This document shows positions 5,497 through 44,837 of a DNA stretch of 64,000 bases, one piece after another; within the stretch, counting starts at the first letter, position 1; each line of letters opens with the position of its first letter. Where the stretch lies: NCBI RefSeq assembly GCF_028867965.1, contig NZ_JAPQNT010000001.1, forward strand, positions 372,001-436,000. The letters run 5' to 3'. Origin of the DNA: Flavobacterium sp. SUN046. Its GTDB lineage: Bacteria; Bacteroidota; Bacteroidia; Flavobacteriales; Flavobacteriaceae. The notes below the pieces were generated by a model. The model was not told the origin of the DNA and made no database searches. It was given only the letters and a program-made list of their open reading frames with translations. The translations under genes were made by a program, and so were the position numbers.

Positions 5497-6058
5497 GTCT
5501 TCGACTGGCTCAGACTGACAGTTGTTTTCAGAATTGTTTTTTGTAATAGATTATATGAATTTTATACTACTATCAATTAGTAGCACGTTGTCACACTGAG
5601 CTTGTCGAAGTGCTCTTAAATTAATAACATGAAATCTTATTTTGTTTACATATTAAAATGTAGTGATAATTCTTATTATACAGGATTTACAAATAATCTC
5701 GAAAGAAGACTTCAAGAACATCATTCTGGAAGAAATAAAGATTGTTATACTTTCGATAAAAGACCTATTGAATTAATGTGGTTTGAAACATTTAATGATG
5801 TATTAGATGCGATTGCTATCGAAAAGAAAATTAAAGGTTGGACAAGAATAAAAAAAGAAGCATTAATTGCTGAAGATTGGGATAAACTTGTTTTATTTTC
5901 TAAAAATTATACAGAATTTGGAAAACCTCAACCATAAAAGTCTTCGACAGTCTCAGACTGACAGTTGTTTTCAGAATTGTTTTTTGTAGTAGATTATATG
6001 AATTTTATACTACTATCAATTAGTAGCACATTGTCATACTGAGCTTGTCGAAGTGCTC
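5497..6058 (+). mobile_element. Repeat-flanked GIY-YIG unit, copy 1
   Basis: The unit is a 119-bp palindromic repeat (5497-5615), a 13-bp leader, the nuclease gene (5629-5937) and a second direct copy of the repeat (5940-6058). The 5' repeat begins immediately after the stop codon of the acyltransferase gene. Calling it a mobile element is inference from its structure; no target duplication was established. Confidence 0.55.
5629..5937 (+). CDS. GIY-YIG nuclease family protein, copy 1
   Basis: This 102-residue single-domain protein of the UPF0213/YhbQ-like GIY-YIG group has the two-strand signature YFVYILKCSDNSYYTGFT (VYI and YTG equivalent to GIY and YIG). The helix NNLERRLQEH carries the usual catalytic arginine, and IEKKIKGWTR carries the usual metal-binding glutamate. 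The fold cuts DNA in homing enzymes, UvrC and some transposition systems; stand-alone small members are poorly characterised. By eye the gene is base-for-base identical to the one at 6201-6509. It lies between two direct copies of a palindromic repeat, which points to a role tied to those repeats. Confidence 0.9.
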   Translation: MKSYFVYILKCSDNSYYTGFTNNLERRLQEHHSGRNKDCYTFDKRPIELMWFETFNDVLDAIAIEKKIKGWTRIKKEALIAEDWDKLVLFSKNYTEFGKPQP

Positions 6059-6068
6059 GCTTAAAAAA

Positions 6069-6630
6069 GTCTTCGACAAGCTCAGACTCACATTTGTTTT
6101 CAGAATTGTTTTTTGTAGTAGATTATATGAATTTTATACTACTATCAATTAGTAGCACGTTGTCACACTGAGCTTGTCGAAGTGCTCTTAAATTAATAAC
6201 ATGAAATCTTATTTTGTTTACATATTAAAATGTAGTGATAATTCTTATTATACAGGATTTACAAATAATCTCGAAAGAAGACTTCAAGAACATCATTCTG
6301 GAAGAAATAAAGATTGTTATACTTTCGATAAAAGACCTATTGAATTAATGTGGTTTGAAACATTTAATGATGTATTAGATGCGATTGCTATCGAAAAGAA
6401 AATTAAAGGTTGGACAAGAATAAAAAAAGAAGCATTAATTGCTGAAGATTGGGATAAACTTGTTTTATTTTCTAAAAATTATACAGAATTTGGAAAACCT
6501 CAACCATAAAAGTCTTCGACAGTCTCAGACTGACAGTTGTTTTCAGAATTGTTTTTTGTAGTAGATTATATGACTTTTATACTACTATCAATTAGTAGCA
6601 CATTGTCACACTGAGCTTGTCGAAGTGCTC
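6069..6630 (+). mobile_element. Repeat-flanked GIY-YIG unit, copy 2
   Basis: It repeats the organisation of 5497-6058 with the same spacing: repeat 6069-6187, nuclease gene 6201-6509, repeat 6512-6630. The 5' repeats of the two units differ at five positions and the 3' repeats at two, while the gene between them is unchanged. Confidence 0.55.
6201..6509 (+). CDS. GIY-YIG nuclease family protein, copy 2
   Basis: The 309-bp gene is identical to 5629-5937 and encodes the same 102 residues with an intact GIY-YIG core. The shared 13-base leader (TTAAATTAATAAC) before each ATG is also identical. Because both copies are open and unmutated, either the duplication is very recent or the sequence is held constant by selection or gene conversion. 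Its 3' flank runs into four consecutive palindromic repeats. Confidence 0.9.
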   Translation: MKSYFVYILKCSDNSYYTGFTNNLERRLQEHHSGRNKDCYTFDKRPIELMWFETFNDVLDAIAIEKKIKGWTRIKKEALIAEDWDKLVLFSKNYTEFGKPQP

Positions 6631-6640
6631 GCTTAAAAAA

Positions 6641-6759
6641 GTCTTCGACAAGCTCAGACTGACAGTTGTTTTCAGAATTGTTTTTTGTAATAGATTATAT
6701 GACTTTTATACTACTATCAATTAGTAGCACGTTGTCATACTTAGCCTATCGAAGTGCTC
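6641..6759. repeat. 119-bp palindromic repeat without gene
   Basis: Full-length unit of the array, spaced 129 bp from its neighbours. The 3' arm reads ACTTAGCCTATCGAAGTG, a variant shared with the next copy. Confidence 0.85.
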
Positions 6760-6769
6760 GCTTAAAAAA

Positions 6770-6888
6770 GTCTTCGACAAGCTCAGACTGACAGTCGTTT
6801 TCAGAATTGTTTTTTGTAGTAGATTATATGAATTTTATACTACTATCAATTAGTAGCACATTGTCATACTTAGCCTATCGAAGTGCTC
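6770..6888. repeat. 119-bp palindromic repeat without gene
   Basis: Full-length unit with the same altered 3' arm (ACTTAGCCTATCGAAGTG) as the copy at 6641-6759, so these two probably arose by local tandem duplication. Confidence 0.85.
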
Positions 6889-6898
6889 ACTTAAAAAA

Positions 6899-6996
6899 GT
6901 CTTCGACAAGCTCAGACTGACAGTCGTTTTCAGGATTGTTTTTTGTAGTAGATTATATGAATTTTATACTACTATCAATTAGTAGCACATTATCAC
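6899..6996. repeat. Truncated last unit of the palindromic array
   Basis: It matches the 119-bp unit up to the beginning of the 3' arm (CACATTATCAC), then changes abruptly to unrelated sequence (GTTTCTCGGCTTCACGATG). This marks one edge of the array. Confidence 0.8.
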
Positions 6997-7129: not shown

Positions 7130-7930
7130 TCAATTCTCTAGGTACCAGCGTATATATTCATTTGTTATTTTATTAAAATCAAAAGCGTCGTAGGTGATAG
7201 TATTTTTAGGAATTAATTCTCTTATTTTTTCATTTGCTATAAGATTGACAGATATTGAACTTAAAATATATTTTTGGTTATAGGTTTTTTCTATTGGTTG
7301 ACCAATCACATTGTTGACAAACGAAAAATTATAAGATATAACATTATTTTGAGAGGTGATGGTAATTCTAGCTAAATTTTGATAACCAATATGCAACATT
7401 GGATGATTTGTTAGATTCATCTTATCAACAAAATTGTTGAAATGGACGAATTTTTTTATAGAATCAATTGTCTCATTTCTATATTCGCAATCAAATAATC
7501 CATCACATTCAATCGCATACGAGCGATCTAATTCTTTAGCTAATTTCTTAATTCTGTGAGTTGTTGGCTTATTAATTTTTGAACTTAGAAAGTTATAAGA
7601 AAAATTCTGCTTGTCAGTGTTTAGACTTATTATTAAGTCTGATAATACTTTTGAATCGCATTTTTTGTTAATGTTTGTTACAGAAGAATCTTTGCTAAAA
7701 ACTGTTGCGTTTTGTTCTGAAATGTGCCAAACTTTATGAAGCGTAACCAATTCAAAATTGCCGTCATTGTTTTTTTCAAAAGTAAATTTTTCTGATTTTG
7801 CATAAATTCCATCTTTAGGAAAACACTGTGCGCCAATTCCATAATAGATTTCTATTTTCTTGATAGTATCTAACGTTTGCCCAAATACAATATTTGCGTA
7901 CAAAAACAAAAAAAGTAGTATTTTATTCAT
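7130..7930 (-). CDS. Secreted protein of unknown function, paralogue of the gene at 848-1657
   Basis: The 266-residue protein has a signal peptide (MNKILLFLFLYANIVFG). It shares blocks with the 848-1657 product along its whole length: DTIKKIEIYYGIGAQCFP, CDGLFDCEYRNETIDSIK, NNVIGQPIEK and a C-terminal ITNEYIRWYLEN. I recognise no catalytic motif. The gene is bracketed by a 15-bp-arm inverted repeat with one mismatch (7116-7130 and 7942-7956), one arm 11 bp from the start codon and the other abutting the stop. Together with the array next to it, this suggests arrival as a discrete insertion. The function is unknown. Confidence 0.7.
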   Translation of the reverse strand: MNKILLFLFLYANIVFGQTLDTIKKIEIYYGIGAQCFPKDGIYAKSEKFTFEKNNDGNFELVTLHKVWHISEQNATVFSKDSSVTNINKKCDSKVLSDLIISLNTDKQNFSYNFLSSKINKPTTHRIKKLAKELDRSYAIECDGLFDCEYRNETIDSIKKFVHFNNFVDKMNLTNHPMLHIGYQNLARITITSQNNVISYNFSFVNNVIGQPIEKTYNQKYILSSISVNLIANEKIRELIPKNTITYDAFDFNKITNEYIRWYLEN

Positions 7931-7954
7931 AGTTCTGATTAAAAATGTCTGCTA

Positions 7955-7978
7955 ACACTGAGCTTGTCGAAATGCTCG
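7955..7978. repeat. Half copy of the palindromic repeat abutting a stop codon
   Basis: CACTGAGCTTGTCGAAATGC matches the 3' arm of the 119-bp repeat with one change. It ends exactly where the stop codon of the M48 protease gene (7979-7981) begins. Confidence 0.7.
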
Positions 7979-10036: not shown

Positions 10037-11005
10037 TTACGTGTTAAGAATGAATTTTATTATTTTATCAACTATTGTTTGGGCTAATTTCTCATGACTT
10101 TCATAGGTCCAACCAGCAATGTGTGGTGTTAGCAATACATTTTCTGCTTCAAGTAAATATTGAAATGCAGCTGGTTGGTCCCTCGACTGCGCTCGGGAAG
10201 ACAAAAAAAGATTTTCAAATGATAATTTTTCATATTCCAAAACATCTAATCCAGCTCCGAGAACTTTTCCAGATTTTAAAGCTTCAACCAAATCGGCAGT
10301 AACCACATTTTTACCTCTTGAAGTGTTGATGAACCAAAACGACTTGGCAAAAGCATTTATAAAATTGGTATTTATTAATTTATCGGTTGCTTCTGTCCAC
10401 GGAATATGCAAACTCAAAACATCTGTTTTTTGCTGTAATTCTTGAAGTGAAACTTGAGTTGCATTTTCATCGCCAACGTTTTCCTGAATATCATAAAACA
10501 GCACTTCTACATCAAATCCGCGAAGTTTTTTGGCAAATGATTTTCCCATGTTTCCGTAACCAATAATTCCGATGGTTTTATTTTCTAATTCAAATCCGCG
10601 GTTGCCTTCGCGAACCCATTTTCCTTCACGAACCAATTTATCAGCACGATTTAGTTTGTTCATTAATGACAATAACATTCCAAGTGCGTGTTCGCCAACG
10701 GCATTTTGATTTCCTTCTGGCGCTGCAATTAAGTGAATTCCTTTTTCTTGTGCATAATCGCAATCAATGCTTTCCAATCCGGCACCAACACGTGCGATGA
10801 ATTGTAAATTGGTAGCTTTATCTAAAAATGATTTATCAATTTTGAATCTGCTTCGAATTACAATTCCGTTATAGTTTTGAATTTTGGTTTCAATTTCTTC
10901 TTTGGTGGATGTGAAATCTTCTTCATTTTGAAAACCAGCATTTTCTAGTTGGTTCCATAATAATGGATGATTGCTGTCGATGTGGAGGATTTTAATGTTT
11001 TTCAT
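10037..11005 (-). CDS. D-2-hydroxyacid dehydrogenase (3-phosphoglycerate dehydrogenase-like)
   Basis: This NAD-dependent dehydrogenase has an NAD-binding GYGNMGKSFAKKL (after IGII), a substrate-binding ARVGAGLESID, a catalytic TSRGKNV region and the catalytic histidine in LLTPHIAGWTYES. It resembles SerA-like enzymes that open serine synthesis, but it lacks a C-terminal ACT domain (322 residues). I set the start at 11005 (MKNIKILHID); the longer in-frame ATG at 11044 reads through a GCAAAG-type repeat. Just before the catalytic histidine block, SSRAQSRD is encoded by a palindrome of the dispersed repeat family (10179-10203) that appears inserted in frame. Confidence 0.88.
   Translation of the reverse strand: MKNIKILHIDSNHPLLWNQLENAGFQNEEDFTSTKEEIETKIQNYNGIVIRSRFKIDKSFLDKATNLQFIARVGAGLESIDCDYAQEKGIHLIAAPEGNQNAVGEHALGMLLSLMNKLNRADKLVREGKWVREGNRGFELENKTIGIIGYGNMGKSFAKKLRGFDVEVLFYDIQENVGDENATQVSLQELQQKTDVLSLHIPWTEATDKLINTNFINAFAKSFWFINTSRGKNVVTADLVEALKSGKVLGAGLDVLEYEKLSFENLFLSSRAQSRDQPAAFQYLLEAENVLLTPHIAGWTYESHEKLAQTIVDKIIKFILNT
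10179..10203. repeat. Short palindrome inserted in frame within the dehydrogenase gene
   Basis: The sequence contains TCGACTGCGCTCGGGAAGAC, flanked by the complementary GTCC. It has the TCGACTGCGCTC core seen again at 41.8, 44.1 and 44.2 kb. It encodes the atypical peptide SSRAQSRD. Confidence 0.75.
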
Positions 11006-43985: not shown

Positions 43986-44837
43986 ATGAAACAAATAAGC
44001 ATTTTAGGTTGCGGTTGGTTGGGATTACCTTTAGCCAAATCGTTATTAGAAAAAGGATATTTAGTAAATGGTTCAACGACTTCGATAGAAAAAATTCCTA
44101 TTTTAGAAAAAATTGGAATTAATCCGTTTATTGTCTCACTGAGCGCAGTCGAAGTTTCTGATGAAACGAAGATTTCCATTGAAGATTTTTTAGAAAATTC
44201 AACTATTTTAATCATTGATATTCCACCAAAACTGAGAGATTCTTCAACTGCGCTCGGAAAGACATTTGTTGGAAAAATTCAAAATCTAATTCCGTTTATA
44301 GAAAAATCTTCTGTTGAAAAAGTGATATTTGTGAGTTCAACTTCGGTGTATGCAGATGATAATTCTACATTTACAGAAGATTCCAAACCTCAGCCCGAAA
44401 CTGAAAGCGGAAAACAATTATTAGAATCTGAAAATCTATTACAAAGCAATAAAAATTTTCAAACAACTATTATTCGTTTTGGTGGATTAATAGGCGAAGA
44501 CAGACATCCAATAAAGTTTTTAGCTGGAAGAACAAATGTCGAAAATCCGAATGCCCCAATTAATTTAATTCATCAAGAAGATTGCATTGGAATAATTGAA
44601 ATTATAATTGAAAAAGGACTTCGACAAGTTCAGTCTGACAACCGTGATTTTAATGACATTTTCAATGCAGTTGCACCATTTCATCCAACTCGAAAAGAAT
44701 ATTATACTCAAATAGCATTGGAACTAAATTTGCCTTTGCCAGAATTTGACGAAAGTAAACCGTCAGTTGGAAAATTGATTTCGAGTGATAAAATCGAATC
44801 AGTTTTAAACTATAAATTCAAAAACAACTTACAATGA
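43986..44837 (+). CDS. NAD(P)-binding SDR-family protein with three repeat-derived insertions
   Basis: The 283-residue protein of the YeeZ-like NAD-dependent epimerase group has a Rossmann GCGWLGLPLAKSLL at the N-terminus and FVSSTSVYADD with the SDR-like serine/tyrosine. RFGGLIGEDRHPIK and FNAVAPFHPTRKEYY are typical of the family. Three stretches are encoded by palindromic repeats: VSLSAVEVS (44132-44157), SSTALGKT (44238-44264) and GLRQVQSD (44618-44640). The frame stays open through all three. The start at 43986 is preferred; the ATG at 43980 comes from a repeat. Confidence 0.85.
   Translation: MKQISILGCGWLGLPLAKSLLEKGYLVNGSTTSIEKIPILEKIGINPFIVSLSAVEVSDETKISIEDFLENSTILIIDIPPKLRDSSTALGKTFVGKIQNLIPFIEKSSVEKVIFVSSTSVYADDNSTFTEDSKPQPETESGKQLLESENLLQSNKNFQTTIIRFGGLIGEDRHPIKFLAGRTNVENPNAPINLIHQEDCIGIIEIIIEKGLRQVQSDNRDFNDIFNAVAPFHPTRKEYYTQIALELNLPLPEFDESKPSVGKLISSDKIESVLNYKFKNNLQ
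44132..44157. repeat. In-frame palindromic repeat, SDR gene, site 1
   Basis: Contains TCACTGAGCGCAGTCGAAGT, the GAGCGCAGTCGA core, read as VSLSAVEV. Confidence 0.75.
44238..44264. repeat. In-frame palindromic repeat, SDR gene, site 2
   Basis: Contains TTCAACTGCGCTCGGAAAGA, a one-base variant of the core in the opposite orientation, read as SSTALGKT. Confidence 0.7.
44618..44640. repeat. In-frame palindromic repeat, SDR gene, site 3
   Basis: Contains ACTTCGACAAGTTCAGTCTG, matching the 5' arm of the 119-bp array unit with one change, read as GLRQVQSD. Confidence 0.7.

Follow-up and report, generated by a model that had tools for sequence, protein, structure and literature searches.

Two identical genes for a small nuclease lie within an array of palindromic repeats in Flavobacterium sp. 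SUN046, which raises the question of whether the enzyme and the repeats form one system and whether the enzyme drives the spread of the repeats. The window, i.e. the whole stretch of DNA analysed, comprises 64,000 nucleotides, and the array occupies positions 5497-6996. Its seven repeat units, with a period of 129 bp where they stand in tandem, and its two identical nuclease genes had been described in a sequence-only reading and are borne out here. The left arm of unit 1 (5497-5520, + strand) reads GT-CTTCGACTGGCTCAG-AC-TGACA and its right arm (5589-5612, - strand) begins with TGTCA. The left arms of units 2 to 6 are found on the + strand at 5940-5963, 6069-6092, 6512-6535, 6641-6664 and 6770-6793, and the corresponding right arms on the - strand at 6032-6055, 6161-6184, 6604-6627, 6733-6756 and 6862-6885, the last two with three mismatches each in the core. 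Unit 7 (6899-6996, + strand) consists of a left arm and spacer without a right arm. The two gene copies (5629-5937 and 6201-6509, + strand) are offset by 572 bp, and their identity extends 82 bp upstream and 64 bp downstream. The order at the gene is TGTCA-arm-gene-arm-TGACA, the gene filling the short gap from a right arm to the next left arm, which measures 17 bp at gene-free junctions. Two hypothetical genes that resemble each other, 848-1657 and 7130-7930 (both - strand), flank the array region on both sides.

The repeat unit had been described as a 119-bp palindrome. A repeat unit is indeed present, but it consists of two hairpins separated by an AT-rich spacer, because every arm forms a bulged hairpin with its own TGACA foot. 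The main difference between left and right arms lies in two covarying foot base pairs, which read GT..AC versus CA..TG. Covariation was tested by comparing the two bases before the core with the two bases after it, using 2000 shuffles. The two foot base pairs are complementary in 27/28 and 26/28 arms of the own genome (shuffled mean 11-12) and in 29/31 and 28/31 arms of genome G079 (shuffled means 10 and 19); three or four types of pair occur at each position in these two sets. Among the genus loci described below, the values are 59/60 and 56/60 for class-A arms and 49/52 and 39/52 for class-B arms. Complementarity exceeds every one of the 2000 shuffles in all four sets, which is evidence for pairing and gives no exact probability since related copies are not independent. 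The same test found no excess at the third pair position in the own genome, G079 or genus class A, and a raised value in genus class B (14/52 vs 8.7, p 0.0035). The TGACA foot is present in 23/28 arms of the own genome, 29/31 of G079, 50/60 of genus class A and 40/52 of genus class B. Predicted folds of single arms have stems that range from weak to strong depending on class; for the class-E arm, as typed, the predicted fold is not the drawn hairpin. A known RNA family was considered and rejected, the four weak matches, all to one Rfam family, scoring 20.8-26.3 bits where the gathering score is 97.

The arms are not confined to the array. The arm CTTCGACAAGCTCAG occurs 15 times in the window with up to three mismatches, compared with 0.84 expected and a maximum of 4 in 100 shuffles, and CTTCGACWRGCTCAG has 34 exact copies in the 3.37-Mb genome vs 0 for the reversed pattern. 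It had been claimed that the palindrome core recurs in the window inside genes. This holds for the copy at 44619, part of a class-A arm (44617-44640, + strand) that lies in frame within the gene at 43986-44834, but the copy at 7958 belongs to a lone dispersed right arm (7951-7974, - strand) with a decayed foot, which is intergenic. The arm residues of gene 43986-44834 are absent in 21/29 homologues fetched from other genomes; the other 8/29 have some residues at that position, several of them arm-like. Among the dispersed arms of the own genome, 5/21 are within an open frame of at least 150 codons, two (L012 and L026) seemingly upstream of the start. At L002 the arm is in frame within a biotin-synthesis-like gene; over this stretch, the 120 listed proteins (query included) comprise 30 of equal length, two longer and 88 shorter, and some have another arm-like peptide at the same place. 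Arm-like stretches of another class (CTCGACTGCGCTCGG, up to two mismatches) are found in the window at 10182, 41823, 44139 and 44243, two of the four within gene 43986-44834.

The 102-residue protein is a GIY-YIG protein (PF01541, 8.5e-19) with a single Pfam domain and no match among the NCBIfam models. Its closest solved structures belong to UPF0213 (1zg2, 3.9e-12; 1ywl, 7.8e-11), and both this similarity and the conserved Y, Y-x-G, R, H, E and K place it in that family. Y7, Y17, G19, R27, E65 and K69 are invariant across 32 sequences, and we take these residues to be the catalytic ones of a GIY-YIG protein. The predicted model has a mean pLDDT of 89.3. Comparison of the window gene with L038 gave dN 0.111 and dS 1.236, and with L039 dN 0.195 and dS 1.367; L041 vs L042 gave dN 0.102 and dS 0.784, and three clade-B pairs were similar. 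One of the seven pairs was saturated, and dN/dS was below 0.15 in all six computable pairs, so that the nuclease gene is, judging by these ratios, under purifying selection. Some clade-A genes (L040, L041, L042 and L043) seemingly enter the flanking arm, whose TGACA foot would then provide the stop codon (TGA). The own genome has six PF01541 matches including both window genes; L033 is a 101-aa gene with a different palindrome before it, L034 is a small gene adjoining a tRNA, and the remaining two are inside long frames. A profile search of the own genome for the Y1 transposase (PF01797) gave no match, which rules out a RAYT as the mover there.

Whether such nucleases are regularly found beside palindromes was examined in the genus, where 80/101 genomes have a homologue at 1e-3. 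Loci were fetched in sets of 30 and 60 more (weaker matches in part), the own-genome loci were added, and 92 genes were kept after removal of repeats and of frames longer than 200 aa. The repeats could be chance palindromes or ordinary terminators, i.e. AT-rich intergenic inverted repeats that occur beside any gene. An inverted repeat of the same score (at least 14, within 250 bp) does occur at 13/112 flanks of control genes in the same loci, 12 of the 13 downstream, but it occurs at 47/92 nuclease genes (p 4e-11). The shared content of the flanks, compared without class labels, is also at odds with chance: among 599 protein pairs of at least 60% identity, 77% have three or more common 11-mers near the gene, compared with 22% of 303 pairs in control windows 2 kb away. 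Sharing falls to 32% near the gene vs 15% in the control at 50-60% identity, is little or not above control below approximately 50%, and shows no excess near the gene at 35-45%. Together with the foot-pair covariation, these control flanks, far windows and shuffles rule out chance palindromes, and this explanation retains a negligible probability.

The motifs beside the gene follow the protein. In a FastTree phylogeny built from proteins of at least 78 aa (85 genus homologues), neighbouring motifs switch with clade, and a class motif lies within 600 bp of the gene in 78/85. Six of the seven homologues without one have palindromes recognised by eye, and L034, of the tRNA type, has none. Homologues therefore do not commonly lie away from palindromes in the genus, nor across phyla, as described below. 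A strict count required an exact arm within 500 bp and covered 68 genes in six clades (the other 24/92 genes being left out). An exact own-class arm is present at 61/68 of these loci (A 8/8, B 7/7, Cs 7/8, D 16/18, E 20/24, F 3/3), and six entries of the clade/class table lie off the diagonal, two of which represent the class-E pattern found in clade B; the diagonal is partly so by construction, the off-diagonal entries less so, because clade borders were drawn on the tree leaf order with the motif tags in view and class motifs were taken from the same flanks. Where one genome has nucleases of at least two of the six clades, the comparison can be made within that genome: the own-class arm is present at 35/38 genes and the arm of a co-resident clade at 3/38, two of these three arising because the class-E pattern also reads some class-B arms. 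On these comparisons of sequence, the pairing of nuclease and repeat is strongly supported.

Copy number in the genome also follows the nuclease. Ten or more class-A cores are found in 7/7 genomes with clade A vs 10/94 others (1.6e-6), ten or more class-B cores in 7/7 genomes with clade B vs 9/92 others (1.9e-6; two genomes in which the gene is broken or truncated were set aside), and ten or more class-D cores in 12/18 genomes with clade D vs 6/82 others (4.2e-11; one genome left out), p-values that overstate independence because the species are related. Copy numbers are not raised for unmatched pairs of clade and class among A, B and D, apart from clade D with class A (0.003). The number of palindromes is thus related to the presence of the gene, each of clades A, B and D going with many copies of its own class and the pair of D with A being the exception. 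Orphan populations also exist: in 27 class-by-genome cases (A 10, B 11, D 6) at least 10 copies are present without an intact cognate gene, and in two of the 11 class-B cases the gene is broken or truncated. The largest is G079 with 142 class-B cores, where the class-B core is absent from the flanks of the three of its seven PF01541 matches that were read. In the class-A orphan cases G038, G056 and G098, the flanks of a gene of another clade hold the class-A core. Another GIY-YIG gene beside the class-B repeats was considered and rejected: the 11 genomes without clade B have 68 PF01541 matches, and of 22 flanks read, covering all 11 genomes, only that of L334 (G006, E-type) has a class-B core within 500 bp, a single one. 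Orphan populations exist, and therefore repeats can outlast, or lack, their gene.

Such orphans would suit a nuclease that serves its host. A structure-specific enzyme could trim or resolve the hairpins or cruciforms of a resident repeat, which would have spread via slippage, recombination or another transposase, the gene being kept for regulation or by linkage. This explanation, which we consider unlikely though worth weighing, would also agree with the purifying selection on the nuclease gene and with gene neighbours that are kept in several genomes, the flanks of L039 and L038 resembling, by reading, the left and right neighbours of the window. It leaves unexplained why each clade has its own class of arm within one genome, and it is weakened by the lack of a Y1 transposase match in the own genome.

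Filled and empty versions of one site bear on the same choice. Six of the seven intact clade-B loci, as well as L052, where the gene is broken by a stop, have the gene and its palindromes between the same two genes, which we take to be fabH and cutC; these neighbours were not seen at L044. No class-B arm is present within 1.5 kb upstream of cutC in any of the 11/11 genomes without an intact clade-B gene, and a tblastn search for the nuclease in the same interval of the same genomes gave only trivial matches (E 0.87 or worse). The end of fabH was missed by the pattern in these 11 genomes and is plain by eye shortly before cutC. In G079 the gap between fabH and cutC holds a palindrome of another class. 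That 11/11 genomes lack both the nuclease and class-B arms at this site is a further observation that a host-serving nuclease would leave unexplained. Two dispersed sites of G079 also differ between genomes: an arm pair at one is common to G079 and G008 and absent in G004, G007, G002 and G014, and a single arm at the other is present in G079 and in none of five other aligned genomes. Presence and absence are seen at both, the flanks being too diverged for exact ends or for a target duplication of the kind that marks a MITE or insertion sequence.

Relatives beyond the genus show the same association. A plasmid collection provided 16 loci, and palindromes were seen by eye in 14/14 relatives other than YazA and YhbQ, at one side only in Photobacterium and Rhizobium tumorigenes; the YazA and YhbQ loci, one each, have flanking palindromes in 0/2. 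The foot varies, being TGAAC in Sphingomonas, and Methylobacterium and R. tumorigenes have a CCTC-like one. On an Azospirillum lipoferum 4B plasmid (L162), the annotated suf cluster has a GIY-YIG gene between sufB and sufC, flanked on either side by palindromes. A genome scan used nine E-type query proteins, and the best 80 of at least 573 relatives were kept, nine of which had too little flank, leaving 71 loci; the set leans to the E type because the queries are E-type, most of them from loci where palindromes had already been seen. Among these loci from the best 80 of at least 573 relatives, 63/71 have a 14-mer upstream of the gene that recurs downstream of it, 54/71 have a tagged hairpin (stem of at least 7, TGAC foot, within 400 bp) and 70/71 have one or the other, compared with 2/60 and 4/60 in control windows 1.6-2.0 kb away. 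They include loci from Bacteroidota, Patescibacteria, Anaerolineae, Ignavibacteriales, UBP14, LCP-89, Armatimonadota and alpha-, beta-, gamma- and deltaproteobacteria. The foot in this set is GAC with A or G, giving a 5' tag of TGTC or CGTC. Near-gene similarity climbs with protein identity from 50 to 70%, and that of far windows does not; pairs at 45-50% identity show no near-gene excess, and above 70% close relatives share near-gene and far windows alike. The YazA and YhbQ relatives without such repeats would be expected of a host-serving nuclease, but recurrence in many phyla would not be explained by it.

The tags of the nearest arms mostly point away from the gene, in 44/60 upstream and 39/57 downstream arms of the genus and in 34/49 and 41/54 of the cross-phylum scan (on these strict patterns, 16/85 genus loci and 12/71 scan loci are armless on both sides). 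A gene between two arms with outward tags looks as if inserted into a palindrome, and the enzyme could accordingly act in a homing-like manner, cutting insert-free arms so that break repair copies the unit in. The gene would then be a selfish passenger of pre-existing palindromes, and the dispersed copies would owe it nothing. Homing enzymes with GIY-YIG domains are known (according to the accessible part of PMC1564403), but the present protein has no second domain (102 aa, PF01541 only), and copy numbers rise with the presence of the clade, which a passenger would not cause. This explanation appears improbable, clearly more so than a host-serving nuclease.

The GIY-YIG enzyme is instead probably the cognate processing enzyme of hairpin REPs, RAYT-like in role and unrelated to RAYT, and it would drive their spread. 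We infer that the enzyme spreads the repeats, since this explains most simply the match of clade and class, the copy numbers and the site found empty. An enzyme of the UPF0213 kind would recognise the hairpin as single-stranded or extruded DNA, ending in an unpaired TGACA or TGACG foot (5' TGTC or CGTC tag), and it would presumably cut at or near the foot. Host repair would then copy or join the resulting ends elsewhere. GIY-YIG enzymes are hydrolases that act without a covalent intermediate, and joining would for this reason need host functions, which are assumed. The gene-bearing unit (TGTCA-arm-gene-arm-TGACA) would spread in this way, and gene-free arms and arm pairs far more often, giving rise to the REP population. 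An autonomous repeat-gene-repeat unit with gene-free copies, comparable to REPs and their RAYTs with a GIY-YIG enzyme in place of the transposase, had been proposed from the letters of the window, and the comparisons of genomes lend it support.

A small GIY-YIG clade adjoins tRNA genes, with loci in the own genome (L034/L108, C1:56605), G057 (L326 and L336), G079 (L340), G063 (L332 and L342), G017 (L349 and L331) and G053 (L348). At several of the loci read, a second copy of the tRNA 3' end, comprising T-arm and acceptor, comes after the gene, and in G057 the gene and tRNA-end unit is in tandem. L329 (G095) differs in that the gene is flanked by two tRNA-Pro sequences, one partial and one whole. 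The tRNA T-arm is a hairpin, and this clade may be a branch of this kind that targets tRNA.

A wider reading, to which we incline slightly, is that GIY-YIG enzymes and TGTC/CGTC hairpins together make up pan-bacterial hairpin replicators, the source of CGTC-tagged REPs including dRS3, with the tRNA T-arm type as a side branch, and convergent with RAYT and REP through an unrelated enzyme and hydrolytic chemistry. Given a candidate enzyme and, for each clade, a hairpin that matches it, the open question of the CGTC-REP enzyme becomes one for a test-tube assay. If the reading is true, known repeats such as dRS3 would be explained, and two unrelated enzyme folds would have converged on hairpin populations of one kind. 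A set of small nucleases that differ in hairpin specificity would also be useful in studying how hairpin DNA is read. No link between GIY-YIG enzymes and REPs was found in the literature searched, preprints and most subscription papers lying outside it, so that an earlier report is possible. In the accessible text of each, the term 'giy' is absent from the RepRanger paper of 2025 (PMC12306157), an HuH survey of 2018 (PMC6006769) and a Coxiella MITE paper (PMC5896051), and 'palindrom' is absent from a GIY-YIG phylogeny of 2006 (PMC1564403).

Several known systems resemble the present one in part. UPF0213 proteins (BH0048, 1zg2; EF2693, 1ywl; B. subtilis YazA; E. coli YhbQ) share the GIY-YIG residues, but YazA and YhbQ, at one locus each, are without flanking palindromes. 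Unlike GIY-YIG homing endonucleases, the protein has 102 aa and a single Pfam domain, and its gene is free-standing between palindromes. Rickettsia palindromic elements likewise lie inside genes; compared by description alone, RPE-4 and RPE-6 correspond to CGTC REPs, and no nuclease partner is mentioned for them in the accessible part of PMC3733652. As described there, CGTC-tagged REPs are known from five phyla and are short hairpins with an unpaired CGTC tag, often TGTC or CCTC, found mostly as head-to-head pairs and in some cases in genes; CGTC-1 of Neisseria is dRS3, and the repeats 'apparently lack a dedicated transposase' (Di Nocera, De Gregorio and Rocco 2013, PMC3733652). The term 'giy' does not occur in a text search of that paper, and its accessible part notes that bulged repeats may have been missed. 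The arms described here look like these repeats in having an unpaired tag beside a short stem-loop, as seen in the TGACA foot of the own genome (23/28) and the tagged hairpins of the scan (54/71 loci from the best 80 of at least 573 relatives). Cross-phylum E-type hairpins beside GIY-YIG genes fit by eye, including one N. gonorrhoeae locus, and E-type arms such as ATTCCCGC-CTTC-GCGGGAAT follow the CGTC stem rule (8-9 bp stem starting with AT pairs, loop of 4-5), whereas class A, B, C and D arms have bulged, interrupted or other stems that depart from it. With the REP/RAYT system the present one shares a single gene, cognate hairpins nearby and hairpins dispersed through the genome as a population. 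The palindrome classes also find a parallel in TnpAREP, for which the accessible part of PMC8266576 describes bulged and perfect REP groups with cognate enzymes and co-evolution of enzyme and repeat. The enzyme here is GIY-YIG (PF01541) whereas RAYT is a Y1 HuH transposase, and the tag is TGTC or CGTC whereas RAYT REPs have GTAG. On this evidence, the system is by enzyme and tag not a REP/RAYT system, although it works like one.
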